Positions 21,754 through 62,967 of a DNA stretch of 64,000 nt are shown here, piece after piece. The DNA is taken from NCBI RefSeq assembly GCF_023375815.1, contig NZ_CP067412.1:1488001-1552000 (forward strand). The letters are read 5' to 3'. The number at the start of each line of letters is the position of its first letter. Positions within the stretch are counted from its first letter, which is position 1. The notes under the pieces are model-generated. The model was not told the origin of the DNA, made no database searches, and saw only the letters and a list, made by a program, of their open reading frames with translations. The position numbers and the translations under genes are program-made. This DNA comes from Pseudomonas sp. HS6 (GTDB lineage Bacteria; Pseudomonadota; Gammaproteobacteria; Pseudomonadales; Pseudomonadaceae).

Positions 21754-22125
21754 ATGATCAAACCAACGCCAAACCCACCCGAAACCGACCCGACCTCGCC
21801 CTACGAAACCCTCGACTCCAAGAAATTCCACGAAGCCGCCGACCGCGCCCTCGATCACTACCTCAATCCGTTCCACCCCAGAAAACCGCTGCTCAAACCC
21901 AACACCCGCTACCTCATCGCCCCCGGCATCCCCAACGAAGAACTGCTGGCCGACGCCTGCGAAACCCTGACCTCCGCCAAAACCATGGCCAGCGATTTCG
22001 CCGGGATGATCGATGCGCCGCAGCGGCATGTGCTGCTGGGCATCGGGCAACTGATCATGCTGGCGGAGCTGGCGGTGAATCGGGTGCTGGATAACCAGGA
22101 CGTGGCGGCAGAGCCTCGGCCCTGA
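21754..22125 (+). CDS. DUF6124 family protein
   Basis: 123 residues with 'ctggagattcaatc' before the ATG. The N-terminus 'IKPTPNPPETDPTSPYETLDSKK' (here given in part) and 'AADRALDHYL' are typical of DUF6124 proteins, which are short, abundant and often multi-copy in fluorescent pseudomonads. A predicted helical C-terminus carries 'LLGIGQLIMLAELAVNRVLD'. No function is established. It stands as a single gene between a structured leader and a terminator hairpin. Confidence 0.9.
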   Translation: MIKPTPNPPETDPTSPYETLDSKKFHEAADRALDHYLNPFHPRKPLLKPNTRYLIAPGIPNEELLADACETLTSAKTMASDFAGMIDAPQRHVLLGIGQLIMLAELAVNRVLDNQDVAAEPRP

Positions 22126-22137
22126 GTGATGAAACCA

Positions 22138-22160
22138 AAACGGCCCTGCATGGGCCGTTT
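22138..22160 (+). terminator. Terminator hairpin after DUF6124 gene
   Basis: 'aaacggccctgcatgggccgttt' is a near-perfect hairpin with A/T flanks, 13 bases after the stop. The convergent LysR gene ends 50 bases further, so it may work both ways. Confidence 0.75.
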
Positions 22161-22168
22161 CGTTCGAT

Positions 22169-22193
22169 CGCTCCCACGCTCTGCGTGGGAATG
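22169..22193. repeat. Short REP-like hairpin
   Basis: 'cgctcccacgctctgcgtgg' plus 'gaatg' is a compact hairpin of the common pseudomonad 'cgctcccacgc' type, between convergent genes. Confidence 0.6.
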
Positions 22194-22209
22194 ATCTCAA
22201 CCTACGTGG

Positions 22210-23187
22210 TTATTCGAACCACTCCTGTCGTTCATTGAACGTACGCTGAATCAACTCAACCAACACCTGCACCTCACCGACACTCTGCGATTCTCGGTTC
22301 ACCGCCAACCACGCCTGCAACCGCATCGCCTCGTCAAACAACCCCGGCAACGCCACCAACCCGCGATCGAACCGGCTCATGTACATCGGCAGCAAACCAA
22401 TGCATGCGCTGCACCGGATCATCTCCAGCATCAGCTCGTAGGACTGCATCTGCACCACCCCGGCCAAGCGCTGTTCGACCAGTTCATTCCACGGCCGGAA
22501 GCTGTCGATCTGCCGATCATGCTGCCATTGCACCAGCATGAAATCGGCAAGGTCGTCCGGACTTTCCGGGCGTGCAGTCACGCGGGAATAACGTTTGGCA
22601 ATGTGTGGCTGATACTCCAGTTGCGCGAGGCGTTGCGGTTCGCTGGTGGCGAAGGTCGGGCCCGGATGCGGGGTTTCGCCGTGGGCGAGCCAGAGCACGA
22701 TGTCGGCGCTGACGGCGCGCAGGGCCAGTTCGCTGTCGAGGGCGATGATCTCCAGGCGCACGCTGGCGTTGCGGCGCAGCAGTGCGATGAGGTCGCGGCC
22801 GAGGATGTCGTGCAGGATCGATTCGGCGACGGCCAGCCTGATCAAGGGCTGCTCGATCACCGGGAGTTTGCGTTCGTTGGCCAACGCGATCAGTTGCGCC
22901 TGCAATTGCTGGCCTTCGCGGGTCAGGCTGAGGGCGCTGCCCTGAAAGCTGAACAGCGCGCATTGCAGTTGCTGTTCGAGCTGCGCCAGTTGTTTGCGCA
23001 GCAAAGTCGAGCGCACGTTGAGGCTGCGGGCGGCCTGCATGAAGCAGCCGCAACGGGCGCTGACCAGAAAGTATTGCGCGACGTCGCCGTCGAGGGTCGC
23101 CGCTTGCGCCAGCCAGGGTTCGTCCTTGTCCTGGGGCCAGCGGAAATCGGCGCTGCTCTGTCGTGCTGCGGGTTCGGTGAATGACAT
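22210..23187 (-). CDS. LysR family transcriptional regulator
   Basis: 325 residues from the ATG at 23187, with AGGGAG eight bases before it; longer in-frame starts to 23226 lack such a site. The helix-turn-helix is shifted to residues about 38-95 by an N-terminal extension: 'YFLVSARCGCFMQAARSLNV...LRKQLAQLEQQL' in pieces, then 'LSLTREGQQL'. The rest is a LysR substrate-binding fold. It is not beside an obvious divergent target; the upstream neighbour is the end of the ppiC operon. Its effector cannot be predicted. Confidence 0.85.
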   Translation of the reverse strand: MSFTEPAARQSSADFRWPQDKDEPWLAQAATLDGDVAQYFLVSARCGCFMQAARSLNVRSTLLRKQLAQLEQQLQCALFSFQGSALSLTREGQQLQAQLIALANERKLPVIEQPLIRLAVAESILHDILGRDLIALLRRNASVRLEIIALDSELALRAVSADIVLWLAHGETPHPGPTFATSEPQRLAQLEYQPHIAKRYSRVTARPESPDDLADFMLVQWQHDRQIDSFRPWNELVEQRLAGVVQMQSYELMLEMIRCSACIGLLPMYMSRFDRGLVALPGLFDEAMRLQAWLAVNRESQSVGEVQVLVELIQRTFNERQEWFE

Positions 23188-23231
23188 CGATGACTCCCTG
23201 TCGATCTTTGTTGTTTGCCTTTGCACACATT

Positions 23232-23249
23232 CCCTGTGGGAGCTGCGGT
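23232..23249. repeat. Single REP half-site
   Basis: 'ccctgtgggagctgcggt' matches the outer part of the REP units in this window but has no partner nearby. It lies between the ppiC stop and the lysR start. Confidence 0.5.
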
Positions 23250-23258
23250 GGATCTGAA

Positions 23259-24206
23259 TTACAGCTTTTCCTCCAGCACCTTGTTGAGCTCGGCCCCGTC
23301 GATGCTCAGCGTTGCGGTGTTGAGCATGCCGTCCAGATAGGCCTGGGCGATCTGTTCCTGACGTTGTGCCCGCAAGGCCTGGGTCAGTTGATCTCGCAAC
23401 TCGTCAAGGGTCGCGGTGCGGGCCGGTTGTTGTTCGGTGAGTTTGATCACGTGGAAACCGGCGCTGCTTTGTACGGGATCGGAAACCGCGCCAACCTTGA
23501 GTCGCGCCACGGCGCCTCGCACTTCCGGCACCAATTGCTGCAACGGTTGCAGGCCAGTGTCACCGCCGCGCTCAGCAGTGAGCCGATCCTGGGAAAACTC
23601 TTTGGCCAACGCCGCGAATTCCGCTGGGGTCGACTGCGCTTTCTTGCTCAACTCCGCCGCCTGCTTGCGCACAGCTTCAAGATTCTGCGGCTCGTTCACC
23701 CCGAGGAAAATCTGGCTCACCCGATACAGCGCCGGTGTCTGCCAATTGGCCTTGCCCGCGTCATACGCCTGCTGCAACTCGGCAGCGCTCGGGTAATCCG
23801 CCGGTACTTTGCTCACCGACTGCAAATAGTCGCGGAACACGATCTGTTCGGTGGCCGCGCGGGTTTGCCGAACCACGTCCGGACGCTGTGCCCAGCCTTG
23901 GGCATCGGCCTGTTCCAGCACGGCTTTTTCAGCCAGGCGTGAACGAATCCAGCGCTCCAGCGCCTCACGATTGCCGCGCAACTGCTCGCGGGTCTGCGGT
24001 GGTACGGCCGCCAACAGTGCCTGCAATTCCTCAGGCGACACCTGCTGATTACCCAGCCGCGCCACCGCCGGCCCGGCATTCGCCGCGATCACCGGCGCCG
24101 GTTGCTGGGCGGCGACCGGGTCATTACCCGGCCGCACCACCAGCGCCACGGCCACCACCAACAGCGCCACCGCAGCGGCGCTGATTACCATGGCAGGTTT
24201 CGTCAC
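23259..24206 (-). CDS. Membrane-anchored PpiC/SurA-type peptidyl-prolyl isomerase
   Basis: 315 residues. The ATG overlaps the stop of the YbjN-like gene (ATGA at 24203-24206). A signal anchor lies at about 6-25 (VISAAAVALLVVAVALVV), so the rest is periplasmic. A SurA-like helical N-domain (about 50-145) precedes a parvulin domain (about 160-258): 'YRVSQIFLG', 'FAALAKEFSQD', 'GGDTG' and 'SSAGFHVIKL'. Such proteins chaperone outer-membrane or secreted proteins. As the last gene of an operon with a TpsB transporter and a porin, it is probably a dedicated folding factor for them. Confidence 0.88.
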   Translation of the reverse strand: MTKPAMVISAAAVALLVVAVALVVRPGNDPVAAQQPAPVIAANAGPAVARLGNQQVSPEELQALLAAVPPQTREQLRGNREALERWIRSRLAEKAVLEQADAQGWAQRPDVVRQTRAATEQIVFRDYLQSVSKVPADYPSAAELQQAYDAGKANWQTPALYRVSQIFLGVNEPQNLEAVRKQAAELSKKAQSTPAEFAALAKEFSQDRLTAERGGDTGLQPLQQLVPEVRGAVARLKVGAVSDPVQSSAGFHVIKLTEQQPARTATLDELRDQLTQALRAQRQEQIAQAYLDGMLNTATLSIDGAELNKVLEEKL

Positions 24207-24679
24207 AGCGCGACTTCCTCTTGCTCGGTCACGGCTGCTTTGGCGGTTTGCACAGCGGCACTGTTTTGCGTGAAGTCACGCAGGTACACGATGAATTCCT
24301 GAAGCAGGCGATCCCACAATTCCAGGTTGCCGCGCAAGTAATCGTTGCTGACGCCAGCGGCCACCACCACGTCCATTTCCATCACCAGAAATTCGCCCTG
24401 CAACGACAACCGGGCAAACCGGCGGGTCGCGTTCCACTGTTCGGCCACACCGGCCGGCAACTCACCCTGCACGCGCAAGGCGCAGCTGAAAGTGAAGTCG
24501 ACGTAGCTGCCCTGCTCCGCCACCGCCGGATTGCCGAAACGCACGGCATAACCGATGCCCTGGCTGGCGCTGAGCAACTGGACGATGCCGTTTTGCTCGG
24601 TCTGGTTGACGCGATAACCGGCGGCTTGCAGCACGTCGGTCAGGGATTGCGGGGATACGTGGGAGATCAATTGAGTCAT
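24203..24679 (-). CDS. YbjN-like protein
   Basis: 158 residues with AAGGAAG upstream of the ATG. The fold resembles the YbjN family (type III secretion chaperone-like): an N-terminal 'LTDVLQAAGYRV', a central beta-stretch 'YVDFTFSCALRV', and a C-terminal amphipathic helix 'LWDRLLQEFIVYLRDF'. There is no signal peptide, so it is cytoplasmic. It lies between the coiled-coil gene and ppiC and overlaps the latter. A chaperone-like role in the operon's export function is inference only. Confidence 0.75.
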   Translation of the reverse strand: MTQLISHVSPQSLTDVLQAAGYRVNQTEQNGIVQLLSASQGIGYAVRFGNPAVAEQGSYVDFTFSCALRVQGELPAGVAEQWNATRRFARLSLQGEFLVMEMDVVVAAGVSNDYLRGNLELWDRLLQEFIVYLRDFTQNSAAVQTAKAAVTEQEEVAL

Positions 24680-24708
24680 TACTTCTTCCTTGTTTATGAG
24701 TCTTTTAA

Positions 24709-25338
24709 TCAGTGCGCGATCGCGGCTTGCGGCGCATCGAATTGAGTCTTGTACAGCTCATCGCCGAAGCCCTGAGCCAGTTCATCGAACTTGACCCGGG
24801 CGCTGCCGGCGAAGGGCTGGCGGATTTTCATCACCTCGGCCACATCGATGTTTTCGTAGGCGGTGAGAATCTGCTTGGCCACGCCGTACATCTGCTGATT
24901 CTTGACCGAACATTGCTGCACTTGTGTGTCACGTTCGGCCAATTGCGCTTGAAGCTTAGACCGTTCTGCCTCTTTGGCACGGGCCATGGCCAACAACTCG
25001 TCATAGGCCTTCTTGAACTTGCCGACCTGCTCGTTGCTGGCTGCCACCTGCGCCTGAGCCTGGCTGTGCAGACTGTCTTGCTGCCCGGCCAGTTGCTCGG
25101 CGACGCCTTTGGCCTTGGCCAGCTCAGCAGTCAACTGTTTGATTTGCGCCTGCGCAGCCTTGGCTTCGTTCTGCGCCGCCAGTTGCGCGGCGCTGGCTTG
25201 AGCCTGCTGGCTTTGCAGGGTTTGCAGCTGCTGGGTGGTGCTGCGCAACTGGGTGCGCAGGCGTTCCTCCATGCCTTCGGCGCTCGCCCCGGTGGCGATC
25301 AACATCCCGAGTCCAAGCCATAAAAAGCGGATTTTCAT
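24709..25338 (-). CDS. Periplasmic coiled-coil protein
   Basis: 209 residues. The signal peptide is about 1-20 (FLWLGLGMLIATGASA). Residues about 25-145 are an almost uninterrupted Gln/Ala-rich coiled coil (for example 'LQTLQSQQAQASAAQLAAQN'), followed by a short globular end with 'QQMYGVAKQIL' and 'IRQPFAGSARVKF'. It sits between porin and ybjN in the TonB/ExbBD/TpsB operon. It may span the periplasm or link complex parts, which is inferred from shape only. Confidence 0.82.
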   Translation of the reverse strand: MKIRFLWLGLGMLIATGASAEGMEERLRTQLRSTTQQLQTLQSQQAQASAAQLAAQNEAKAAQAQIKQLTAELAKAKGVAEQLAGQQDSLHSQAQAQVAASNEQVGKFKKAYDELLAMARAKEAERSKLQAQLAERDTQVQQCSVKNQQMYGVAKQILTAYENIDVAEVMKIRQPFAGSARVKFDELAQGFGDELYKTQFDAPQAAIAH

Positions 25339-25355
25339 AACCCTCTCCCGGCGCC

Positions 25356-27053
25356 TTAGAAGCGCGTGTTGATCTCGAGCTGCAAGACGTCGATGTCGAA
25401 CGGCGCGCCATACACCGCTTCGGTGCTCATCCAGCGGCCGGTGGCGTAGACGTTCTTCGCCAGGCCGTAATTGCCGCCGAGGAAATAGCCCTTGGCGTTG
25501 GTGCCGCCGAGGTGGAACGACGAGTCGTTGAAGCCGTCAGGCAAGGCGTCCGGCTGGATGTACTTGTAGCCGGCGAACATATTCCAGTCGCCCTGCTTCT
25601 TCAGCTCCAGCGCACTGCCGAGGGTGAACTGGACCATCCATGCATTGGCGCCGCTTTCGATGTTGCCGCTGCTGTCGAGGTTGTTGGCCAGTTGCCCGGC
25701 CGCACGCTTGCGCATGTCGCCTTCGTCGTAGCCGAGGTTGTGGATGTAGTTGCCCTGGGTGCGCAGCTTGAAGTCTTCCGGCAGGTCGGCGTCCCACACG
25801 AGGTTCAGGTCCAGCAGATTGAACTCGGAGGCCAGGCCCACGAATTGCGGCTGCGGCGTTGTGCTCGGGTTGAGCGGGTTCGGCGTGATGTCACGCAGCA
25901 GGAACACGCTGTTGCCTTTCTGCATGAACGCGGCACGGGTGCCGTCGGTGTCGCAGCCCGGCGCGCCGGCCCAGGGTTCGCAAGGGCTGGAGCGCTGGCC
26001 TTCAATGTCGTCGAAGCGGTAGTAAGCCAACGCACCTTTCAAGCGGTTGTTGCTGTTGATCGCCCATTTGGCGCCGATTTGCGCGCCGTACAGCCATTTG
26101 TTGTCGCTTTCTTCCTTGTCGAAGCCGTTGCTGGTGGTGGTGTCGTTGGTGTAATCCACCGGGAACGCGCCGACGGTGCCGAACACGCCCCAGTCGTTGC
26201 TGAGTTTGTGGTCGAAAATCGCCGCCACGCCGTCGAAGTTCAGGTCGTTGGAATACAGCATGTCGGTGGACATGAACGGGTTGGCGAACCGGCCACCGGT
26301 CAGCGTCAGTTCATCCGACGGCTTCCAGGTCAGGTAACCCTGATCGAGCCAGATGTCTTTCTTGGCAAAACCGCCGCCGAGGTTCTGGGTGGTCGACACC
26401 GGGTTGTTGTCCGAGCCGGTGCCGATGCGGATGCCGGCGGTCCATTCCGGCGAAATCACCGCTTTCATGCCCAGTCGGGCGCGCAGGCGGAACAGGTTGG
26501 TACGGTCTTCACGGGTGTTGAGCAACGGCGGCAACGCGGTGCTGCTGTTGGGGTTCACGTCATACGGGCCGTTGTTGTTGAGCTTGGCGAAGTCGACGAT
26601 TTCGTTGCTGTTGCTGCCCGAGTAGTAGCGCGATTCGTCACGCAGGCGAATGTCGCCGTCGAAGCTGATGCGCGAAGCCCAGTCCGGGAAAGTGTTGGGC
26701 GCGGCCCAGTTTTCCTGCTTGGCGGTGGCCATGACTTCAGCCTTGACCTGATCGCGGATCTGGTCGCGTACCGCGGCCGGCACGTATTGCACCCGCACAT
26801 CGCCAGGGGCTGCGACCGGCCCGGCTGCCACAGCGGTAGACGCCGCAGCCTGCTTGGCCTGGGCCGCTTCGTTCTGGGCCTGGGCGATCAGCGCGTCGGC
26901 CTTGTCCTGTTTCAGAATGCCTTGCTCGACCAGCAAGCGGATCAGATTGATCGTGGCGTTCTCCGAGGGCGCAGGCGCTGCCGCGGCCTGACCGACCAGG
27001 GTCGCGATGACCATGCCGACCGCCAGGGACAATCGATTCACGTTGGAAATCAT
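25356..27053 (-). CDS. Large outer-membrane porin with N-terminal helical domain
   Basis: 565 residues from the ATG at 27053; AAAGGAG ten bases upstream overlaps an earlier in-frame ATG at 27074, which has no ribosome site of its own. The signal peptide is about 1-26 (LSLAVGMVIATLVGQAAA). A periplasmic helical segment ('LLVEQGILKQDKADALIAQAQ' in two parts) and an Ala/Gln coiled coil reach about residue 70. The remainder is beta-barrel with alternating aromatic strands and the C-terminal 'LEINTRF' ending in Phe. It fits the 'putative porin' family (Porin_5). Its place in an energised TonB/ExbBD operon suggests a partner barrel rather than a general porin. Confidence 0.88.
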   Translation of the reverse strand: MISNVNRLSLAVGMVIATLVGQAAAAPAPSENATINLIRLLVEQGILKQDKADALIAQAQNEAAQAKQAAASTAVAAGPVAAPGDVRVQYVPAAVRDQIRDQVKAEVMATAKQENWAAPNTFPDWASRISFDGDIRLRDESRYYSGSNSNEIVDFAKLNNNGPYDVNPNSSTALPPLLNTREDRTNLFRLRARLGMKAVISPEWTAGIRIGTGSDNNPVSTTQNLGGGFAKKDIWLDQGYLTWKPSDELTLTGGRFANPFMSTDMLYSNDLNFDGVAAIFDHKLSNDWGVFGTVGAFPVDYTNDTTTSNGFDKEESDNKWLYGAQIGAKWAINSNNRLKGALAYYRFDDIEGQRSSPCEPWAGAPGCDTDGTRAAFMQKGNSVFLLRDITPNPLNPSTTPQPQFVGLASEFNLLDLNLVWDADLPEDFKLRTQGNYIHNLGYDEGDMRKRAAGQLANNLDSSGNIESGANAWMVQFTLGSALELKKQGDWNMFAGYKYIQPDALPDGFNDSSFHLGGTNAKGYFLGGNYGLAKNVYATGRWMSTEAVYGAPFDIDVLQLEINTRF

Positions 27054-27092
27054 CTGCACACAACTCCTTTTCATACAGCTTTATGAATTCGG

Positions 27093-27797
27093 TTAACCCG
27101 GACGCCGCCCTTGCAGGGACATGCGCACAGGCAAGGTGATGGAGGCCGGTGGCCGTTCGCTCAGATGCGGCGCGTTACGCAAGGCGGCCAGCACCTGACT
27201 GTCGATCTCGGGGTTGCCACTGGACTTGATCAGCTCGACCCGGGTGATCTCGCCGACACTGCTCAGCCACACATCGGCCTGCAGCGAAAACGCGAGGTTG
27301 CGCAGGTCGGGGTTCTCGCGCAGCAGCTTCTGGAAGGTGAACGCGAGGAACTGGCTGTAGGTGCCGTTGCCCACTCGCCCACCGCCCGCGCCGGCCATGC
27401 CGCCGCCCTTGCCCGCGCCGATGTTGAAGGCGTCGTTGCCGCTCTGGGCGTCGCCGTCCATTTGCATCGGGTTGGCCAGATCGTCCGCCGGTGATGGCGG
27501 TGTTTCTTCCTCGGGCTTGACCTCTTGCGGCTCGGGCGTTGGCTCGGGCTCGACGATTTTTTCTTCCACCGGGGTTTCCGGCTCCGGCGGTTTTTCCGGC
27601 GGCGGAGGTGGCGGTGGCGGCAACGGAATGATCGTCGGCACCTTCGGCGCTTCCCGGCGGATGCCGCTCATGTCGTTGGCCCACTGCCACAGGAACCACG
27701 CGGCGAGTGCGGCGAGAATCAGCCCGGCGCCCCACTTCGCATAGCGCAAGGGCGACTTCTTCACCGGCAGCGGTTCGATCGGAAGTTGTGCGGTCAT
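27093..27797 (-). CDS. TonB-family energy transducer
   Basis: 234 residues, starting three bases after the exbD stop. One N-terminal membrane helix (about 22-40, WGAGLILAALAAWFLWQW) is followed by a Pro/Glu-rich stretch (about 50-105, with an eight-proline run) that can cross the periplasm. A glycine-rich hinge and a TonB-like C-terminal domain (about 145-230, 'RVELIKSSGNPEIDSQVLAALRNAP' in pieces) follow. It transmits proton-motive force from the adjacent ExbB/ExbD to an outer-membrane partner; no classical TonB-dependent receptor is in this operon. Confidence 0.9.
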   Translation of the reverse strand: MTAQLPIEPLPVKKSPLRYAKWGAGLILAALAAWFLWQWANDMSGIRREAPKVPTIIPLPPPPPPPPEKPPEPETPVEEKIVEPEPTPEPQEVKPEEETPPSPADDLANPMQMDGDAQSGNDAFNIGAGKGGGMAGAGGGRVGNGTYSQFLAFTFQKLLRENPDLRNLAFSLQADVWLSSVGEITRVELIKSSGNPEIDSQVLAALRNAPHLSERPPASITLPVRMSLQGRRPG

Positions 27798-27800
27798 GAC

Positions 27801-28226
27801 TCAGCCCTGGCTCGGTTTGCCGGTGACGAGACCGACCTGGGACAGTTCGAGCCGGCGCAGCAGATCCAGCACTTCGATGACCTTCTGGTACTGCACCGTG
27901 GCGTCGCCGCGCACGATCACCGGGAAGTCCGGGTTCTGCGCCTTCTCGATGCGCAGGCGTCCTTCCAGCTCCGGCAAGGTCACCGGGTAGGCGTCGAGGA
28001 ACACCTGCCCGCCATCGTTGACCGAAATCGCCTTGGTCTTGGCCTCGGACAGCGACACGGCGGCGCTGGCCTTGGGCAGGTTGATCTGGATTCCGGAGAC
28101 CTGCGCAGTAGCGGTGAGGATGAACATCACCAGCACCACCATCAGCACGTCCACCAGTGGCGTGATGTTGATGCTGTCCACCGCTGCATCTTCGTCATCG
28201 TCGTGGGAGGCATTTACGGACGCCAT
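27801..28226 (-). CDS. exbD: ExbD-type proton channel subunit
   Basis: 141 residues, with GAGGAG upstream. One membrane helix (about 20-42) carries the essential aspartate D26 in 'ITPLVDVLMVVLVMF'. The C-terminal periplasmic domain has 'VSGIQINLPKAS' and the conserved 'VIVRGDATVQYQKVIEVLDLL' in pieces. It forms the proton channel with the ExbB-like protein encoded 11 bases upstream and drives TonB encoded just downstream. Confidence 0.93.
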   Translation of the reverse strand: MASVNASHDDDEDAAVDSINITPLVDVLMVVLVMFILTATAQVSGIQINLPKASAAVSLSEAKTKAISVNDGGQVFLDAYPVTLPELEGRLRIEKAQNPDFPVIVRGDATVQYQKVIEVLDLLRRLELSQVGLVTGKPSQG

Positions 28227-28237
28227 GTCAGTGCTCC

Positions 28238-30037
28238 TCAGGCCGGTACGGAGTGGTTGGCGTGATGACCGCGCTGATGCGCCGCTTCACTGGACTGGCC
28301 TTCGCCGTGCATCTCCGCCAGACGGGTGATGAACTCGTCGACGAACACGCGCATGTCGGCGCTGACTTCCTTGTTGCGGGTAATCAGGCGGTTGTAGCCA
28401 AACAGCGCCGGGATCGCGACGAACAGGCCCATGGCGGTAGCCAGCAAGGCTGCGGCCATACCCGGCGCGATGGCGTTGATGTTGACGTCGCCGGCCATGG
28501 CGGTGCCGAGGAACACCACCATGATCCCCATCACCGTACCGAGCAGACCGATGTAGGGGCCGCCGGCGATGGCGTTAGACAAGGTCGAGAGTTTCGAACT
28601 CAGTTGCTGGTTTTCCCGGGTGCGCACGCCATCCATGGAGCAGCGGATGGCTTCGATGGTCGCCGCCGAAACCGACGAGGTATCGGCGCCTTGTTCGCGG
28701 CGAGTGCGGATCTCTTTCACCGCCACCTGATACAGACGCCACAGCGGCGAATGCCGCAAACGCTGGGCGAGTTGGGTGTCGTCGGCGAACATCTCCAGGC
28801 GAGTGCCGACCTTGGCGAATTGCACGCGGAAGTCTTCGTTGGCAGCGGTGACACGGCTGAGGGTGCGGTTCTTGCGCAGCATGATGATCCACGACTGGAA
28901 CATCATCAGCACCAGCACCGCGATGATCACCCAGGCATCGACCGGCACGGCGTTGAGCAGGAAACCGAGGCTGCCGAAACCGTAGCCGGACTGTTCTTCA
29001 TCGACGCCGTAAGCCACCAGTTTCGACTCGGCGCCTTGGGAAGTGGCATCGGCCAGCAGCAGCGGCGCCGGACGGGCGACTTTCGACAGGCGCAGTTCAT
29101 CGATGGCGCCCACGAACGGTTGGAAAGGACCTTCGTGCAGATCCGCACCGATGGCCATGACCGAATTGAACGCCGGCATTGCCTGAGCCAGTGCAGCGCT
29201 TTCGCGACCATTGATGTACAGCGTCACTTTCGCGCCTTCAGCGGTCAGCGCGACGTGTTGCCATTGGCCCGGATTCAGCGGTTGCGTGGCGACGGCGCGC
29301 TGGCCGTCGATCTCCACGAACGGTACACCCTGATTCACACCGACCAGCAAGCTGTTGGTGCCTTCGCGGCGGGCCAGGATCAGTTGCTCGCCGTTGGCCT
29401 GATCCAGACGCAGCCAGGCACTGAAGGTGAACGCGCTGCCAGCGTTGTGCTGCAATGACGGACTGGCCGGCAGCAACAATGGCTGGCCGCTGAACTGCAA
29501 GGCCCGCCCCACTACGCCGTCGATTGCCGCGCCAGTGGCGCTCTGCGCGGTGTTGCCGTAGGCAGTGGTGTCTTTCGCCGGGGTGCCGGTGGCGCCTTCG
29601 AAGTGATAGAGCGCGGTGTAATTCGGATCGAATGTGAGCTGACCGTTGCCGGTGGCCGGCGCCTTCTGGTTGCCGTAGTACATCCAGATGTCCTGACGCT
29701 GACCGCCCTCGACATTCGGCACATCGACCCAGATCAGCGCCATGCCCATCAGCGCATCGAAGCTTTCGATCTGGTGGTTGAGCACGGTCTTGTCATCGGC
29801 CGCGACGAAGCGCAGATCCGAGCCGTCCTCTTTCACGCCGTCAAAGGTGAAGTTGCCGGTGTGCAGGCGCACCAGCAGCGCGGTGCGGCCCAGAGCCTGA
29901 TTGATCCCGGCGCCTTGCGGCGTGGTGTCGACGGCGATCTGTTTGCGGTAATGCCAGTCGTCCTGCCACCAGGCCTGAGCCGTGGCCGGGAGCACGAAGC
30001 CCAGGCAGATCAACAACGAAAGGAAAAGGCGCTGCAT
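28238..30037 (-). CDS. ExbB/TolQ proton channel with periplasmic DUF2341 and LamG domains
   Basis: 599 residues from the ATG at 30037 (AAGGAG upstream). The signal peptide is about 1-22. DUF2341 starts at the mature end ('WWQDDWHYRKQI') and runs to about 120. A LamG/concanavalin-like jelly roll follows at about 140-320 ('ALYHFEG', 'FSAWLRLDQANG', 'WQHVALTAEG', 'LYINGRES'). Membrane segment one is at about 366-388. The MotA/TolQ/ExbB domain occupies about 430-560, with 'GLLGTVMGIMVVF' and 'ALLATAMGLFVAIPA'. The topology fits ExbB with its N-terminus in the periplasm, but the extension is much longer than in standard ExbB. It may sense or bind a glycan or protein ligand. Confidence 0.9.
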   Translation of the reverse strand: MQRLFLSLLICLGFVLPATAQAWWQDDWHYRKQIAVDTTPQGAGINQALGRTALLVRLHTGNFTFDGVKEDGSDLRFVAADDKTVLNHQIESFDALMGMALIWVDVPNVEGGQRQDIWMYYGNQKAPATGNGQLTFDPNYTALYHFEGATGTPAKDTTAYGNTAQSATGAAIDGVVGRALQFSGQPLLLPASPSLQHNAGSAFTFSAWLRLDQANGEQLILARREGTNSLLVGVNQGVPFVEIDGQRAVATQPLNPGQWQHVALTAEGAKVTLYINGRESAALAQAMPAFNSVMAIGADLHEGPFQPFVGAIDELRLSKVARPAPLLLADATSQGAESKLVAYGVDEEQSGYGFGSLGFLLNAVPVDAWVIIAVLVLMMFQSWIIMLRKNRTLSRVTAANEDFRVQFAKVGTRLEMFADDTQLAQRLRHSPLWRLYQVAVKEIRTRREQGADTSSVSAATIEAIRCSMDGVRTRENQQLSSKLSTLSNAIAGGPYIGLLGTVMGIMVVFLGTAMAGDVNINAIAPGMAAALLATAMGLFVAIPALFGYNRLITRNKEVSADMRVFVDEFITRLAEMHGEGQSSEAAHQRGHHANHSVPA

Positions 30038-30051
30038 GGAAGTGCTCCTTG

Positions 30052-31686
30052 TTAGAAAGTGGCCTGAAGGTTGAAGTGCAGGCGCGATTCCTGTTTCGAG
30101 GTGTTCGGCCCTTCGAGTAGCGGGTAGCCCCAGTCGACGCTGCCGGACAGCCATTTGCTCAGGCTGGCGCGGGTGCCGAGGCCGACACTGGCCAGGGCAT
30201 AACTGGCGTCCTGGTCCGGCAGTTCGTCGCGCAGGTAGAGTTGCGCGCCTTCGGCGAAGGCATAAAAGCGCCAGTCCTGCATCCAGGTGCCGGCGTACTT
30301 GGCCAGCGACGGCGTGCGGACTTCCTGACTGAGCAGCACGCCGTCATCACCGGTGCGTTCGGCCGCCAGATAACCGCGCACCGAGGTCGCGCCGCCTGCG
30401 GAGAATTGTTCGTTGGAAACCAGTGGCCCCGACGCCAGTTGGAACGCGGCTTTGCTTGCGCTTTGCCAGTCGCTGTCGAAAGTCCAGGTGAAATTGGTAT
30501 CGCCCTTGAGCACGGCGAAGCTCGGGTTGGCGCGGTAGCGTTTGTAGTCGAAGTCTTCGTCGGAACTGCCGTAGCCGAAGATGCTGCGGGTGGCCGCGAC
30601 CAGGCTCAGGCCGAGGCCGAGCTGGCTCTTTTCGGTGTAGCGATAGCCGTTGTAGGCAAACGTGAACGGCGCGTATTTCAGCGGCACCTTGTCGCTTTCA
30701 CCGGACAGGGTCAGGCGTTCGTCGAAGTCCTTGAAGTCAATGCCGGCCGACAGTGAGTTCGACCAACTGCCGCTGGACGGGATCGTGTAGATCGCCGACA
30801 CGCCGTAGGAATGCCCCTTGCCGAGCACGTTGCTGCCGCCGATGGTGGCGACGTTGCTGTCGGACTGGTAACCGGAGAACTGCACGCTCCAGCGCTCGGT
30901 CAGCGGCGCGGTGTAGGAACCGGACCAGACCTTGGCGTTGTCGGTGTCCTGCGGCGCGGTGAAGAACGTCAGGTTGACGCTGTGGCCGAGCTGCCAGAGG
31001 TTGTTGTAACCGAGGCTGGTGACGGCACGGAGTTTTTCGGTGTCGGCGCTGTAGTCGTTGTTCAGACCCACGCTGGCGGTCCACGGGTTCTGGTCTTCGA
31101 CCTGCAGATCCACGTCCATGGTGCCGGGGCGCTGGCCTTCGCGCACCAGCGGCATCACCTGCCGGCCCGGGGTCTTGTTGAGTTGCGCCAGTTCGCCCTG
31201 GACCTTGGCGAAGTCCGGCACTTCGCCTTCTTTCAGCGCCGGGACGTTGTCGCGGATGTCCAGCGGCGAATAGTGTTTGGCGCCGACCACCCGCACCCGG
31301 CCGACCTTGGTTTCGCTGACTTGCAGGTAGACGATGCCGTCGGCCACCGCTTGCTCCGGCAGTTCGACGAACACGGATTGGTAGCCGCGTTCCTGATAGG
31401 CCTTCTGCAAGGCATCCCGCGCGCCTTCAATGTCGCTCAAGGCTTTTTGCGGGCCGAGGAACGGGTACACCGCTTCTTCGATCGCCCGCGCATCGAGCAC
31501 CGTGTTGCCACGCACGAAGTATTCGTTGACGTCCACCAGACGCTGCGCCGCTGTGTTTTCGGCCTCATCGGCGAACGCCGGCTGCGCGCCGGCCGTCACC
31601 AGCAGCCAGCCCCACAGCGCCAGCCGTGACGTGAAAATCTGATCCACACTACCCCCTGAAATTCGCGATGACCTGTTGGCGCTCAT
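30052..31686 (-). CDS. TpsB outer-membrane transporter (ShlB/FhaC/HecB family)
   Basis: 544 residues. A signal peptide ends near 'GAQPAFA'. Two POTRA-like repeats lie at about 50-190 ('NEYFVRGNTVLDARAIEEAVYPFLG' in pieces; 'VRVVGAKHYSPLDIR'). The rest is a 16-strand type barrel with the Omp85/TpsB motif 'GGATSVRGY' and a C-terminal Phe (LQATF). A GTG at 31647 after AGGGGG would also give a clean signal peptide, so the start is not certain. Family members export one TpsA exoprotein in two-partner secretion, but no TpsA gene is in the window. It is 14 bases upstream of the ExbB-like gene. Confidence 0.9.
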   Translation of the reverse strand: MSANRSSRISGGSVDQIFTSRLALWGWLLVTAGAQPAFADEAENTAAQRLVDVNEYFVRGNTVLDARAIEEAVYPFLGPQKALSDIEGARDALQKAYQERGYQSVFVELPEQAVADGIVYLQVSETKVGRVRVVGAKHYSPLDIRDNVPALKEGEVPDFAKVQGELAQLNKTPGRQVMPLVREGQRPGTMDVDLQVEDQNPWTASVGLNNDYSADTEKLRAVTSLGYNNLWQLGHSVNLTFFTAPQDTDNAKVWSGSYTAPLTERWSVQFSGYQSDSNVATIGGSNVLGKGHSYGVSAIYTIPSSGSWSNSLSAGIDFKDFDERLTLSGESDKVPLKYAPFTFAYNGYRYTEKSQLGLGLSLVAATRSIFGYGSSDEDFDYKRYRANPSFAVLKGDTNFTWTFDSDWQSASKAAFQLASGPLVSNEQFSAGGATSVRGYLAAERTGDDGVLLSQEVRTPSLAKYAGTWMQDWRFYAFAEGAQLYLRDELPDQDASYALASVGLGTRASLSKWLSGSVDWGYPLLEGPNTSKQESRLHFNLQATF

Positions 31687-31702
31687 GCGCCTTGCGTGTG
31701 CG

Positions 31703-32329
31703 TCAGTTACTGGCGTTCTTGATTGCTGAAGTGCGGGGCCCGGTGTGTTTGCCCAGCCAGGTGTGCAGCAGCGCGAAGTTCAAGGAGAACTCGGGCATTT
31801 GCAGCAGCGCGCCGCAGAACACTTCACCGATGATTTTCTGGATGAGTTGCACCGCACGCGGCTCGTTGAGCAGCGTGGCGATGTCGCGACTGAGGACGTT
31901 GAAGCTCCAGACTTTCTGATTCAGGCCAAGGCCCACGAACCAGCGAAACAGCAGGTTATAATTGAGCTGTTCGTAGAGCTGCTGCTCGCTGGGCACCGAA
32001 TACAGCAGTTGCAGGAGCAGGATGTGCATGACCGTTTGCGCCGGGATCAGCATGCCGGGCTGGGCGTTGAGGTCGTGAAGGAGATCGCTGTGAGCGTCGA
32101 ACAGGTCGTCGATCTGCGGGCGCAGCAGCACCAGCGAATGCCCTGGCGGAATGTAGCTGGAGACCTCTTTCAAGGCGCCCTGCCAGTCATCCTGCGACAC
32201 GATCCAGACCCACGGCGCGCCGTAGCGATACACCGAAACCGGCTTCTTGCGCGCGGCTTCGACGATCTTCGACAGGCGTTGATCGAGTTCCTGCATGCCC
32301 ACTTTCGAGTAGCGTTCCATAGTCCCCAT
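31703..32329 (-). CDS. Phd-antitoxin-like domain fused to transposase N-terminal domain
   Basis: 208 residues from the ATG at 32329 (GGGAG seven bases upstream). Residues about 4-52 look like a Phd/YefM antitoxin fold: 'ELDQRLSKIVEAARKKPVSV', then 'YRYGAPWVWIVSQDDW'. Residues about 92-155 match the N-terminal domain of IS5-type transposases (DUF772): 'LLLQLLYSVPSEQQLYEQLN' and 'YNLLFRWFVGLGLNQKVW'. No DDE catalytic domain follows, so it cannot transpose. It is the first gene of the TpsB/ExbBD/TonB operon, 16 bases from tpsB. Both domains bind DNA in their families, so an autoregulator is likely. Confidence 0.82.
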   Translation of the reverse strand: MGTMERYSKVGMQELDQRLSKIVEAARKKPVSVYRYGAPWVWIVSQDDWQGALKEVSSYIPPGHSLVLLRPQIDDLFDAHSDLLHDLNAQPGMLIPAQTVMHILLLQLLYSVPSEQQLYEQLNYNLLFRWFVGLGLNQKVWSFNVLSRDIATLLNEPRAVQLIQKIIGEVFCGALLQMPEFSLNFALLHTWLGKHTGPRTSAIKNASN

Positions 32330-32490
32330 TGCCTCACTCCCGGCGTCCCGCCTCGGCTTGTGAAAAGCGCCCTGTTGGGCCCCTCAAGCGCGTTACATAG
32401 GCATGACCGGACTGGCGATGTGCTACCGAACTTTTGTCATAAAAGCTTCATTACAGAACTGGAGTGAGATCGATCGGGCACCACAAAAAA

Positions 32491-32598
32491 CTGTGGGAGC
32501 TGGCTTGCCAGCGATTGCGGTCTGTCAGCAAATAAATGGGTTGCTGACCCGACGCTATCGCTGGCAAGTCGAATCGTCGCACCGCAGCTCCCACAAGG
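32491..32598. repeat. REPIN upstream of the TpsB/TonB operon
   Basis: Inverted REP pair: 32491-32520 (ctgtgggagctggcttgcca gcgattgcgg) and 32553-32598 (gctatcgctggcaag ... gcagctcccacaagg), the right unit with the extra 'tcgaatcgtcgcacc'. The rest of the gap 32330-32627 holds the presumed promoter of the operon; I could not assign boxes with confidence. Confidence 0.9.
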
Positions 32599-32627
32599 TT
32601 TTGTGTAGTTTTTAAGAAGTCAGCAGA

Positions 32628-33911
32628 TCAGGTATAGACCGGCCAGGTATCGACAATCTTGCCGCCACGTACCGCCAGCAAGTCACCGAATTGCAGCAAC
32701 ACCGCTTCGGTCTGGGTCGGTCGCAGGAACACTTGATCCTCCACCGTCAGCCCCACGGCATTCGAACCATTGACCATCTCCTGATTTGAACTGCGCCCGT
32801 AAACACCATTGCTCTGCAATCCGGGCGGTGATTCGAACTCAGCCATCCAGTTGCCGCCGTAGATAAAAAAGGTCTGGCGCTGGTTGGCATCCCACCACGA
32901 AAACAGTTTCGACTTGTCGTCCAGCGCCGGAATGTTCACCGCCCCGGTGCTTTTCAACACCGGGGTGGCGATGTACGCGGCAGGCTCGTGTTCGACCAGC
33001 GACGGCAGATCGTAATGAGTCGGCTTGAGCATCGCCGTGCCCACCGACACTTCACTGCTCAGGGTTTCGTTCTCATGAATGCGATAACTCGGGCTGCCGG
33101 CGGTGTTCAGGCACAAGCCGTCATGCCACAGCGCCGGATATTGCTGCCGGGTGAAGTCGACGCAGCGCTGATAAGTCACCATCACCTTGGCGAACAATTC
33201 CTCGGGTGAACCGAGAATCCCCGGCACGCCCATGCCCACGAACGGGTCGTAGCCCATGAACCCGGCGAACGCCAGGTGCTGCGGGTTGGCGGAGATCAAC
33301 GCGAGCATCTGACCCAGCACGTTCACGTCACTGACGCCGCCACGGTGCAGGCCGACGTCGAGCTCGATGTTGATCCGCATTCGGGTGCCCAATCCCTGGG
33401 CCAGCGCGAGGTATTGCTGCAAGCGTTCGGGGTTGTCGATCAGCCATTGCAGTTGCTTCGTTGGGTCGAACGGACCTTTGTGGGTCTGGTAGAAAATCTC
33501 CGCCGAGCGTACCGGCAGGGGCTTGCCGAGCAGAATGTCGGACTGCGGGTAAACCTGTGCATCGTGATTGAGAAACGGCTGATGAAACGACATCAGTCGC
33601 TGCGTCCCTGCCCTTTGAGCGATGTAGCTGAGCAGTCCCGGCGATGGCAAGGACTTCTCCACCAGCCGCAGGTGTTTGCCGCTGCGCTTGACCGAGCGCA
33701 TCACCACGTCGATGTTGTGATCCAGACGATCCAGATCGATCAGCAACACCGGGCGCATCGGGCCTTTGGTCTTGAGTTCATTGTTCAGCGCCCGGAAATA
33801 TTCGCTGTACGGCCCGCCGCGATCCCCGGGACGCAGCCATGCCCCCACGCCCACCAGCAAGGCACCGACCCCCAACGTACCGAGCACGAAATTACGTCGA
33901 TTGACCGCCAT
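32628..33911 (-). CDS. Tat-exported DSD1-family PLP enzyme (alanine racemase-like fold)
   Basis: 427 residues. The ATG at 33911 overlaps the stop of the oxidase gene (ATGA). The N-terminus 'NRRNFVLGTLGVGALLVGVGAW' reads as a twin-arginine signal. The body has the PLP TIM-barrel of D-threonine aldolase/D-serine dehydratase-like proteins; 'LRLVEKSLPS' near K86 is the candidate PLP lysine, and 'IELDVGLHRGG' and 'GFMGYDP' are further family blocks. Tat export fits an enzyme that binds its cofactor before transport. It probably acts in the periplasm on a D-amino acid or beta-hydroxy amino acid; substrate unknown. Confidence 0.85.
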   Translation of the reverse strand: MAVNRRNFVLGTLGVGALLVGVGAWLRPGDRGGPYSEYFRALNNELKTKGPMRPVLLIDLDRLDHNIDVVMRSVKRSGKHLRLVEKSLPSPGLLSYIAQRAGTQRLMSFHQPFLNHDAQVYPQSDILLGKPLPVRSAEIFYQTHKGPFDPTKQLQWLIDNPERLQQYLALAQGLGTRMRINIELDVGLHRGGVSDVNVLGQMLALISANPQHLAFAGFMGYDPFVGMGVPGILGSPEELFAKVMVTYQRCVDFTRQQYPALWHDGLCLNTAGSPSYRIHENETLSSEVSVGTAMLKPTHYDLPSLVEHEPAAYIATPVLKSTGAVNIPALDDKSKLFSWWDANQRQTFFIYGGNWMAEFESPPGLQSNGVYGRSSNQEMVNGSNAVGLTVEDQVFLRPTQTEAVLLQFGDLLAVRGGKIVDTWPVYT

Positions 33912-35305
33912 CAGTTCACCCCCAGAATCGACGACAGATGCCCGTTGAGAAACTTGCCGCTCGGGTCCAGCGCCTGGCGTACCTGAATGAATTCCTGCCA
34001 GCGTGGGTACAACGTCTGCAACGTACGGGCGTTGAGCGTGTGCAATTTGCCCCAGTGCGGGCGGCCGTTGTACTTCCAGAAGATCGGCTCGACGGCGGCG
34101 AAGAAATTGTGATGGTCCATCTGGTAATGCTGGTGGACCGAGATCGAACAGCTGTCGCGACCCTCGAACATGCTCAGCGGAATGTCGTCGGCCTTGACGT
34201 AGCGGTACTCGATGGGAAACCAGGTGCGCAGGTCCTTGTCGCGGATCAGTTTGAGAATCTCGCGCAGGCACGCCGGGCCGTGTTCAGCGGGTACCGAGTA
34301 TTCCATCTCGTTGAAGCGCACGGTGCGCACGTTGGCGTAGATGTCGAACGAGTCGCCGACCCGATCATCGAAACTCGCCAGATGCCGCAGGCTGTTGAGC
34401 AGCGAACTGCGCAGGCTCGGGAAGTCGCTGCCGTACTTGTCGATCTTCTCGATCAGGGTCACGAACTCGTTACCGCCCTCCTCTTCAGGCGGGATCGGCG
34501 GCGTGGGCGGGTCGGTGGTTTCGTTGAGGGCGATCGACAAGGCGTAGTCGGAATGGGTGACCACGAGCATTTCCCAGTGCTGGTTTTCGCGGGTGTTCTT
34601 GTCCAGGTCTTCGAGCAGTTCTTCGGTCTTGGCGATCCACTGGGTTTCCCGCAGGCGATAGGCCGGGCGGTTTTGCAGGCGGATCTTGGTAGCAACGCCC
34701 AACGCGCCGAGGGACACACGGGCGGCGTTGAACACTTCGGGATGACGCTGGCTGTCGCAGTCCAGCACTTCGCCGCTGGCGGTCACCAGTTGCATCCCGC
34801 AGACGTGGGCCGAGTAGGACTGGAAGGTTTTGCCGGTGCCGTGAGTCGAGGTGGAAATCGCCCCGGCGAGGGTCTGGTAATCGATATCGGCCATGTTTTG
34901 CAGGGCCTGGCCGACGTCCTTGAGCGGCGTGCCCATACGCGACATCGGCGTGCCGGCGGCGAACTCGGCTTGCAGGGTTTTCGGGTCGTGATCGAGCAGA
35001 CCGCTGAAGTAGCTCAGCGACAACAACGTGCCGTCGGTAGGCACCAAAGCACTGAAGGAATGCGCCGAGCCGACCGGGCGAATTTTGCCCGGTGCCTGCT
35101 GGATCACTGTCGTCAGTTCATCCAGATTCTTCGGCGCCACCCGCGCTGCCGGCAGGCAACTTTGCCCGCCCGACCAGTTGCGCCAGGGAATCAGCCGCGG
35201 TGCCCGCATCAACTGGCCCAGCGCCGGATTGGAAGCCAGCGCGCTGAACGCCCCGACGATGCTTGCCCGTTGCAACAACTGTCGGCGTGTCAGATCTATC
35301 GGCAT
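33911..35305 (-). CDS. Tat-exported FAD oxidase, aldonolactone oxidase family
   Basis: 464 residues. A twin-arginine signal is at the N-terminus (LTRRQLLQRASIVGAFSALA). A PCMH-type FAD-binding domain covers about 45-215 ('GSAHSFSAL', 'STHGTGKTF', 'LGALGVATKIRLQNR'), and a D-arabinono-1,4-lactone oxidase-type C-terminal domain follows, ending 'DPSGKFLNGHL'. Relatives oxidise aldonolactones or alditols. With a cytochrome c encoded just upstream, electrons may go to the respiratory chain and not to oxygen. Confidence 0.88.
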   Translation of the reverse strand: MPIDLTRRQLLQRASIVGAFSALASNPALGQLMRAPRLIPWRNWSGGQSCLPAARVAPKNLDELTTVIQQAPGKIRPVGSAHSFSALVPTDGTLLSLSYFSGLLDHDPKTLQAEFAAGTPMSRMGTPLKDVGQALQNMADIDYQTLAGAISTSTHGTGKTFQSYSAHVCGMQLVTASGEVLDCDSQRHPEVFNAARVSLGALGVATKIRLQNRPAYRLRETQWIAKTEELLEDLDKNTRENQHWEMLVVTHSDYALSIALNETTDPPTPPIPPEEEGGNEFVTLIEKIDKYGSDFPSLRSSLLNSLRHLASFDDRVGDSFDIYANVRTVRFNEMEYSVPAEHGPACLREILKLIRDKDLRTWFPIEYRYVKADDIPLSMFEGRDSCSISVHQHYQMDHHNFFAAVEPIFWKYNGRPHWGKLHTLNARTLQTLYPRWQEFIQVRQALDPSGKFLNGHLSSILGVN

Positions 35306-35315
35306 GCCAGGATCC

Positions 35316-35669
35316 TTATTGTGGGAGCGGCTGATCGGCCATGAAACCGATCAACTGAAGAAATTGTTCTTCCGAGCACTCGACGCACTGGCCCATCGGC
35401 GGCATGCCGTTGTAGCCGTTGATGGCGTGGTCGAGCAGCGTGTCGGCGCCCTGCTGGATGCGCGGCTCCCAGGCCTTGCGGTCACCGGTCAACGGCGCAT
35501 TCGCGGCGGGGTTGGCGTGGCAGAGCTGGCAGCTATTGGCGTAGATCTGCGCCAGCGCCGGGTCTTTGGGCATGGCGTTGTTGGTGCTGGCCGGGGGTTT
35601 GGGGTCTTCGCCGCAGCCGGCCAGCGCAGCGGCCAGCATCAGCAACAACGTGATTCGGGATGCCCGCAT
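35316..35669 (-). CDS. Lipoprotein c-type cytochrome
   Basis: 117 residues from the ATG at 35669 (gcgagg upstream); a longer in-frame start at 35693 would spoil the signal. The lipobox is 'AALAGC'. One heme motif, C-Q-L-C-H, is seen, and 'GYNGMPPMGQCVECS' supplies the distal Met region and an extra cysteine pair, as in c5-type cytochromes. It is a membrane-tethered electron carrier and the first gene of an operon with the FAD oxidase (10-base gap) and the PLP enzyme, so it is the likely electron acceptor. Confidence 0.9.
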   Translation of the reverse strand: MRASRITLLLMLAAALAGCGEDPKPPASTNNAMPKDPALAQIYANSCQLCHANPAANAPLTGDRKAWEPRIQQGADTLLDHAINGYNGMPPMGQCVECSEEQFLQLIGFMADQPLPQ

Positions 35670-35936
35670 AACGATCCTCGCGTTGGGTGCCACTTATTGT
35701 TGTAAGCACACCTTAAGGCAGCGACGGCGGCGGGTTGAGGGCATTGCGGGCCAGTGAAGGGGGCAAACGGGGACAGTCGGGATACAACTCGGGATCGAAC
35801 AAAAGGAGGGAATCTTGCTGAGCCCTCTGCTCTGCGCCTTTGAGTGACATTCGCGTGACATTTGCGGGTTTAAATTGCAGCGCGTTCAGGCGTATAACCT
35901 GTACAGACTTTTTCAATTGGCAAGCAGGGTAGCGAC

Positions 35937-59934: not shown

Positions 59935-60037
59935 GACCTGTTACGCGTGCGACCCACTCTCACCAGCCTTTTTCTGCAAGACCCACACCACGCCCATAAA
60001 GTGACTTGTGTGGGCAAATATTTCATACACCCTCTGA

Positions 60038-60313
60038 TCCGTCCGGCACCATGGGATTGAGTTTGAACATGGCTACACAAGGTATGGATTCAAGGCAGGT
60101 CGACACCTGACTGCAGGTATCTTTGAGTCAGTCTATAGTGCTGAGTCATCGATTAAGTACACAAAGCTCTATAAGGAAACAGGAAGTCGCTCTACAACAA
60201 ACGTCAAAGCGACCGTGCGAATCAAGAAACTATCAACCAAACCATACCGAAACTATTTTACCGCTTTCATTCAACTCAATATTACAACGCTGAGGAATCC
60301 AGTCTCGCGTTAG
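60038..60313 (+). pseudogene. Possible 3' remnant of a lost protein gene
   Basis: After a TGA at 60035-60037 this frame is open for 91 codons and reads like protein (for example 'YGFKAGRHLTAGIFESVYSA'), but it has no ATG or GTG start or ribosome site and ends antisense to the next gene. It may be the tail of a deleted gene. No family recognised; the stretch 59935-60232 holds nothing else I can support. Confidence 0.25.
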
Positions 60314-60706
60314 ACCGTCACCTGTTTTATATACTCTAAGAGGATGCCCTACCAGTTGAGAAATCGTCTGAGGCTGAGAGGATACTAGCGACCCTATAAG
60401 TTGTCCGACGCTGACGTCCTCAGCTGACTTCACGGCATTTCCTTCCAACAAATTAAAACCACAGGGCCCTGCAATTCCTCTGCTTAACAATATCCAACCT
60501 TCCTCAGTAATCTCAAAAGCATTGAAGGTACCTTCCGGCAACCCGCATAAAGATGGAAAAATCCGACTCCCGGTTTTTTCACCCAGTATCTGCGCCCCCC
60601 CTATCAATCCAGATAACTCCTTGCGCGCTTCGGCAAGCGTGGTTTTCCGTACTTCCGGGTGGCACTGGACGGCGCCATCAAGCTTATATACCCATACGTT
60701 AGACAT
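60233..60706 (-). CDS. Unknown soluble protein, 157 residues
   Basis: ATG at 60706 with AAGGAG eight bases upstream. The reading starts 'SNVWVYKLDGAVQC' and has no signal or membrane segment. 'FNAFEITEEGWILLSRGIAGPCGFNL' (in pieces) lies in the middle, and the C-terminus has 'WIPQRCNIELNESGKIVSVWF'. The overall look is a two-domain beta-rich protein. I cannot name the family. It lies in the lower-GC patch. Confidence 0.7.
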   Translation of the reverse strand: MSNVWVYKLDGAVQCHPEVRKTTLAEARKELSGLIGGAQILGEKTGSRIFPSLCGLPEGTFNAFEITEEGWILLSRGIAGPCGFNLLEGNAVKSAEDVSVGQLIGSLVSSQPQTISQLVGHPLRVYKTGDGLTRDWIPQRCNIELNESGKIVSVWFG

Positions 60707-60841
60707 ATTATTCTCCTTGTTCAAATCAGCTCTATTCACAAGAGCACCACCCAAATAGCAAACTGCTTAGGTAGCCAACTAAAAAAACAATACCTCTGCA
60801 TGCTGTTTGGTGAAAAAAAAGGATAGTCCAGGAAAAACCAG

Positions 60842-62956: not shown

Positions 62957-62967
62957 GGGTCGACATC

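Follow-up and report, generated by a model that had tools for sequence, protein, structure and literature searches.

Why is a two-partner secretion (TPS) outer-membrane transporter, TpsB, encoded together with a complete ExbB-ExbD-TonB motor? The question is raised by an operon of Pseudomonas sp. HS6 that lies in the 64,000-nucleotide stretch analyzed here (the window; contig NZ_CP067412.1, positions 1,488,001 to 1,552,000, with positions below counted from its first letter). As an initial annotation of the DNA had described, nine genes share one strand, here the minus strand (32329 to 23259); neighbors are separated by 3–39 bp or, in one case, overlap by 4 bp. The assignments of that annotation (TpsB, ExbB, ExbD, TonB, porin, periplasmic coiled coil, YbjN and PpiC) are borne out by Pfam/NCBIfam profile matches for all but the coiled-coil protein. 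The first gene, left nameless in that annotation's title, is of the phdA type, and a LysR gene 32 bp after the ninth adds a tenth co-directional member. From our analysis the operon emerges as a variant of two-partner secretion, dedicated and associated with a motor. We further propose, with a probability of roughly 0.55, that it is a dedicated machine for one giant TpsA protein carrying a DUF3739 domain, with the motor energizing export or anchoring of this protein.

The initial annotation could match the operon to no described system and named an existing description of the same locus as what would overturn its reading. Such a description exists: the same operon is published as Pseudomonas aeruginosa PA0691–PA0701, and this map rules out an undescribed locus. 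The accessible text of Llamas et al. (2009, PMC2729926) lists PA0690 (tpsA), PA0691, PA0692 (tpsB), PA0693 (exbB2), PA0694 (exbD2), PA0695 (a tonB homologue), PA0696–PA0698 and PA0699 (PpiC), and notes that in several species homologues of TPS, ExbBD and PA0696 are found together. According to the parts available of Quesada et al. (2016, PMC4971064), phdA, pdtB, exbB2D2, tonB4 and PA0696–PA0701 are expressed from one promoter that depends on PhoB and sigma-VreI. From partial accounts, PdtA/PdtB is a functional TPS under control of PhoB and sigma-VreI, FadD1 binding is reported at the PA0692 promoter, and PdtA, PA0696 and PA0698 are among the proteins most enriched under phosphate limitation by proteomics (PMC9769906). 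In the text available of Otero-Asman et al. (2020, PMC7035377), the TonB system counts as not yet characterised and PA0696–PA0700 as genes of unknown function.

Compared with the published gene lists, the window operon has the content and order phdA-pdtB-exbB2-exbD2-tonB4-PA0696(porin)-PA0697-PA0698(YbjN)-PA0699(PpiC)-LysR; we identified no counterpart of PA0700 in it. Its TpsB shares 73% identity, across 91% of its length, with a P. aeruginosa TpsB; the latter is taken to be PdtB on the strength of the shared map, not of PAO1 DNA. Judged by sequence, the window operon is the environmental (fluorescens-group) version of the P. aeruginosa PdtB operon. It shares with P. aeruginosa PA0690–PA0701 (the PUMA3/VreI-PhoB regulon) the same genes, the same order and a similar promoter logic, but its TpsA gene lies 4.4 Mb off along the contig, yet still beside a type II secretion cluster. 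Neighborhood conservation, which the initial annotation had suggested as a check, holds: among named Pseudomonas loci (the best 80 of 161) the nine-gene set is kept as a unit in 71, 70 of which have LysR as well, and the other nine comprise three loci on short contigs, five without PhdA only and one without PpiC only. Of the dedicated TpsB-plus-motor system that had been proposed, there remains a conserved unit, co-inherited with one type of TpsA; the part that falls is its lack of any described match.

A search of the genome revealed two TpsA (PF05860) and three TpsB (PF03865) loci, which rules out a TpsB without any possible TpsA. One TpsA is a giant, 4,189-residue open frame with an N-terminal TPS domain (PF05860, E 1.6e-28) and a C-terminal DUF3739 domain; the distance to the window is 4.4 Mb along the contig, or 2.1 Mb if the contig is circular. 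It was overlooked by the initial annotation because its gene lies megabases outside the window. We call it PdtA-like, a label for which the PdtA sequence itself formed no part of the comparison. The 40 kb read around this gene contain no TpsB, and it comes directly after a cluster for type II secretion (GspL, GspD) and a gene for a PstS-like phosphate-binding protein, surroundings that resemble the hxc-lapA-pdtA order of P. aeruginosa. TpsA, type II secretion and the PstS-like gene may represent one ancestral phosphate-starvation locus that was split later. We infer that the window TpsB serves this unlinked protein, which is the probable substrate of the operon. The other TPS of the genome, a 575-residue TpsB adjoining a 1,489-residue TpsA, has no motor gene in the large neighboring frames that were read and provides a useful internal contrast to the motor-linked TPS.

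Motor and giant TpsA are strictly co-inherited. In a sample of 199 Pseudomonas genomes, source genome included, the DUF2341-ExbB motor and the PdtA-like TpsA (cut-off E <= 1e-60) occur together in 62, both are missing from 137 and neither occurs alone (0 genomes), a table whose Fisher value is not a probability of independent events. With up to six candidates scored per genome, full-length DUF2341-ExbB proteins matched with E 1.8e-278 or better; the other ExbB matches listed are 5e-27 or weaker and begin at residue 312 or later. The TpsA frame measures at least 3,959 residues in 60 of the 62 carriers; of the other two, G033 has the gene divided between two frames and G107 has a frame of 829 residues. 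In 24 carriers motor and TpsA lie at most 30 kb apart; another 19 have them on one contig at a distance of 46 kb to 4.4 Mb, and the last 19 on separate contigs.

The class sample of 369 genomes, again including the source (up to three candidates per genome scored for the motor and 12 for DUF3739), holds a full-length motor gene in 22 genomes, one of them matched in two pieces (G268), and DUF3739 above the cut-off in 23. Setting the source genome aside, 20 genomes have both, 345 neither, one the motor only (G302) and two DUF3739 only (G299, G398); each of the three discordant matches starts no more than about 600 bases from the end of a contig. Left out of this count are a DUF3739 match of 25 bits, under the cut-off (G421), and a partial DUF2341-type match in G299. 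Nine families mix carriers and non-carriers, with motor and DUF3739 moving together. Because the pairing is so strict across genomes, it suggests that motor, porin and TpsA serve one function. In the literature searched we found neither a report of this co-inheritance nor a paper on DUF3739, and a search for TPS with TonB, proton-motive force and ExbD returned, as far as the accessible texts go, no paper on a motor-linked TPS. A stator-evolution paper that treats DUF2341 with ExbB and TonB names the domain as one of unknown function.

Operon and TpsA gene also share a promoter motif. On the minus strand upstream of phdA we located a conserved pho-box-like element, ATGAAGCTTTTATGACA, followed by GTTCGGT as presumed −35 (32425–32451), and a match to the pattern TGACA-N4-TTCGG-N16-CNGYC, the presumed −35/−10 core of an extracytoplasmic function (ECF), VreI-type promoter (32405–32439). 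When the 6.55-Mb genome was scanned for ATGAA-N2-TT-N3-TGACA-N3-GTTCGGT with two mismatches allowed, only two sites emerged, each a perfect match: the first precedes phdA, the second the TpsA gene (0 sites for the backward-pattern control). TGACA-N-GTTCGG stands upstream of phdA in 80 of 83 Pseudomonas loci with enough sequence, the others being one masked and two variant sites. Across the 199 Pseudomonas genomes the core pattern is found somewhere in 62/62 carriers versus 8/137 non-carriers (116 sites in total versus eight backward-control sites). It lies near the operon in 60 of the 62 carriers, near TpsA in 42 and at both in 40, 20 having no exact site at TpsA; 14 sites lie elsewhere, five of these in carriers. 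By analogy with the published operon (PMC4971064), the motif would be a sigma-VreI/PhoB promoter. We found no sigma-70-like promoter in 22100–32700, and the 11 terminator-like sites there (11.4 expected), all on the plus strand, are at chance level.

To see the arrangement outside Pseudomonas, we compared 30 motor loci from 27 other genomes. ExbB is found in all 30, ExbD and TonB in 28 each, the porin in 25 and the coiled-coil family in 21; a giant protein related to TpsA is present in 19, a twentieth (L117) having been dropped as a short, weak member. TpsB was found in 24 loci, 13 in the first stretch and 11 more after reading 20 further stretches; the six loci without TpsB were not extended. 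TpsB lies about 13 kb from the TpsA start in one of the 24 (L102/L155) and about 7 kb from the motor in another (L103). Nine loci share the order TpsB-TpsA-ExbB-ExbD-TonB-porin-coiled coil, two of them with PpiC too; there TpsB immediately precedes the TpsA N-terminus, and the motor genes follow the TpsA C-terminus. The TpsA C-termini that were read share an end block, VDLIAP-G-(V/I)NAG-AGI ... GVPV ... V-V-GFG. Some genomes have two copies of the DUF2341-ExbB motor (L107/L108, L111/L118, L125/L126, and G317 with L117); no porin or coiled coil accompanies the copies L108, L117 and L118 in the stretch read, and L126 has them.

The window TpsB (30052–31686, minus strand as all ten genes; 544 residues) contains a signal peptide, two POTRA domains (POTRA_2, 2e-17) and an Omp85-type barrel (ShlB, 6e-20); together with the TPS domain of the unlinked TpsA, POTRA_2 and a ShlB/FhaC barrel identify a type Vb system, and CdiB and FhaC rank first among the fold matches of TpsB. 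As in the classical systems FhaB/FhaC and CdiA/CdiB, a TPS-domain TpsA is paired with a POTRA/Omp85-barrel TpsB. Unlike them, the window system has no visible plug helix H1 and linker before POTRA1, its TpsA carries DUF3739, and it is co-inherited with a TolQR-like motor, TonB, porin and coiled coil. An alignment of the class and one structural model contain no H1 helix and linker of the FhaC kind. The shortest members have some 8–15 mature residues before POTRA1 (signal peptides judged by eye), and the model places no helix between signal peptide and POTRA1, residues 28–48 having a predicted local distance difference test score (pLDDT) below 50. The class thus seems to lack room for the plug helix and linker. 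The literature searched contains no statement that H1 defines the type Vb family.

The motor proteins fall into the ExbB, ExbD and TonB families. ExbB (28238–30037; MotA_ExbB, 3.5e-27) has a periplasmic N-terminus formed by DUF2341 and laminin-G-like (LamG-like) domains. Its start appears better placed at 30037, because a signal peptide and AAGGAG just upstream fit this position and many relatives' matches begin nearby; the protein then has 599 residues, and its gene no longer overlaps TpsB. ExbD (27801–28226; 141 residues; 1.7e-29) has its membrane aspartate conserved in 26 of 26 aligned sequences. ExbB scores higher against the TolQ model (153 bits) and ExbD against the TolR model (91 bits) than against the ExbB/ExbD models, and the best PDB matches of ExbB are TolQ. 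The TonB-like protein (27093–27797; 234 residues) carries a conserved Gly-rich block between its Pro-rich part and the TonB C-terminus (tonB_Cterm, 3.3e-7). Like the Tol-Pal and TonB-ExbB-ExbD motors, the window motor combines MotA/TolQ/ExbB and ExbD/TolR family proteins and keeps the ExbD aspartate; unlike them, its ExbB is fused to DUF2341 and LamG-like domains and its TonB is without a conserved membrane histidine.

The second barrel, a Porin_5 protein of the PA0696 type (25356–27074, likely start 27053; 1.8e-209), is specific to the operon. In 63 hand-chosen genomes (the source, a second Pseudomonas carrier, 18 of the remaining 21 motor carriers of the class sample and 43 non-carriers), full-length or near-full-length Porin_5 matches (E 1e-152 or better) occur in 20/20 carriers and 0/43 non-carriers. 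Eight non-carriers have partial matches, which with one exception leave the N-terminal part of the profile uncovered, and the conserved N-terminal stretch VRV-YVP of the operon porin lies in the region that matches outside the operon mostly lack. Neither porin nor YbjN has a solved relative by sequence, and a porin structure model from 31 close sequences was set aside (mean pLDDT 42.8). The porin gene is followed by those for the periplasmic coiled-coil protein (24709–25338; 209 residues; PA0697 type), which has a conserved C-terminal block and matches no Pfam family, the YbjN family protein (24203–24679; 158 residues; PA0698 type; 4.9e-11) and the PpiC-type peptidyl-prolyl isomerase (23259–24206; 315 residues; PA0699 type; rotamase profile, 1.6e-20), whose hydrophobic N-terminus, read by eye, is probably a membrane anchor. 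The LysR-type regulator (22210–23226; PA0701 type) is a profile match and has its equivalent in the published operon. PhdA (31703–32329; 208 residues; PA0691 type), a DUF772 match and the first gene of the published operon too, may not be part of the machine proper; PhdA-like genes lie about 10 kb from the TpsA gene, apart from TpsB, in three related genomes.

Upstream of the operon on the same strand, genes at 32628–35693 encode an alanine-racemase-like protein, a sugar-lactone oxidase (ALO) and a small c-type cytochrome, and probably form a separate cluster. An imperfect inverted repeat (about 32480–32600; arms GGGAGCTG and CAGCTCCC) separates them from the phdA promoter and resembles a Pseudomonas repetitive extragenic palindromic (REP) element; one arm sequence recurs near 8526. 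Farther off, 60001–64000 begins with lower GC (0.50 at 60–62 kb) and then holds a tyrosinase with DUF7868 and a PpoB2 copper chaperone.

How might such a machine work? YbjN, which we take to have a chaperone-like fold, would keep the approximately 4,200-residue TpsA unfolded in the cytoplasm, and PpiC and the coiled-coil protein would do so in the periplasm. TpsA would then pass the outer membrane by way of the plug-less TpsB. Proton-motive force would be delivered to the outer-membrane side by the TolQR-like ExbB/ExbD motor and the TonB that belongs to it. This energy could act on TpsB, the porin or the TpsA C-terminus, so that export would be initiated, completed or anchored; we infer where and in which direction the energy is passed on, as well as the chaperone functions. 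A role in export or surface assembly is favored because TpsA and motor genes are adjacent in distant lineages, TpsB appears plug-less and the partner proteins are chaperone-like. More tentatively, and as a possibility that we hold to be less probable, DUF3739 TpsA and plug-less TpsB would define a widespread TPS class that draws on proton-motive force by means of a private TolQR-like motor and TonB.

Several observations weigh against an energized export. According to the available part of a review (PMC5422565), type V translocation proceeds in reconstituted systems with no energy added, and in zebrafish, transposon mutants of PA0695 (tonB), tpsA, tpsB and PA0696 showed the same virulence as the wild type when VreI was overexpressed, as the accessible text of PMC2729926 has it. 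No TonB box was noticed in TpsB, though no search was aimed at one. The third TpsB of the genome has no PF05860 TpsA beside it within its 3.4-kb locus, and the pairing of the window TpsB with the giant TpsA therefore rests on co-inheritance and promoter; the sampled genomes are related, so the co-occurrence counts are not independent events, and an uptake role of the motor would account for the co-inheritance just as well. Finally, the 26 aligned TonB sequences have no histidine at a conserved membrane position; it occurs at the membrane end in two (L120, L121) and just after it in one (L128), and the sequence called for L099 is truncated. A membrane histidine matters in Escherichia coli TonB, and the four membrane-anchored TonB/TolA proteins of this genome carry one. 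These four were judged by eye because an SxxxH pattern missed all of them, matching once, in the fifth PF03544 match, which looks like a soluble exported protein. The missing histidine speaks against a simple equation of this TonB with that of E. coli.

The main rival, which we regard as somewhat unlikely, is an uptake of captured ligand: TpsA, exported by TpsB unaided, would bind a phosphorus-containing ligand at the cell surface, and the TonB motor would drive uptake of this ligand, once released, through Porin_5, in the manner of HxuABC. It stays the main rival because of the phosphate-starvation control in P. aeruginosa and the precedent of HxuCBA, the Haemophilus influenzae haem-haemopexin system, in which HxuA, HxuB and HxuC combine a TPS with a TonB-dependent partner. 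The position of the TpsA gene after the type II secretion cluster and PstS-like gene is in line with it, as is an operon-specific porin with its conserved VRV-YVP stretch. HxuCBA is likewise a TPS operon with a TonB-linked outer-membrane protein, but HxuC is a TonB-dependent transporter and the available accounts mention no private motor, whereas the window operon encodes motor and TonB. No TonB-dependent receptor, transporter or plug family is matched among its ten genes, the second barrel matching Porin_5 only. The chaperone-like genes (PpiC, coiled coil) suit export better, and no ligand is known.

In a third, decidedly improbable explanation, the TolQR-like motor, the lectin-like periplasmic domain and the coiled coil would remodel peptidoglycan or hold the envelope at the exit site, with no energizing of transport. 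The higher scores against TolQ/TolR and the TolQ structural matches are in line with this, and TolQRA pairs with CpoB much as this motor is accompanied by a periplasmic coiled-coil partner; the third protein, however, has a TonB-type C-terminus, and no Pal or TolB family is matched among the ten genes. That motor and TPS are separate functions merely grouped by phosphate-starvation control is hardly credible: the P. aeruginosa Pho/sigma-VreI regulon does include other functions, but the co-occurrence data (0/199 discordant genomes, and joint movement in mixed families) make this unlikely, as does the position of the motor genes, which in distant lineages come right after TpsA.

Taken together, in each of 199 Pseudomonas genomes a complete motor and one class of giant TpsA are either both present or both absent, and the association recurs across many gammaproteobacterial families. 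P. aeruginosa tonB4/exbB2/exbD2 and the DUF3739, DUF2341-ExbB and PA0697-type families thereby gain a common context. Either some two-partner secretion is energized, or giant TpsA proteins work with a private uptake motor. If true, a TPS powered by proton-motive force would contradict the textbook view that type V translocation proceeds without an external energy source.

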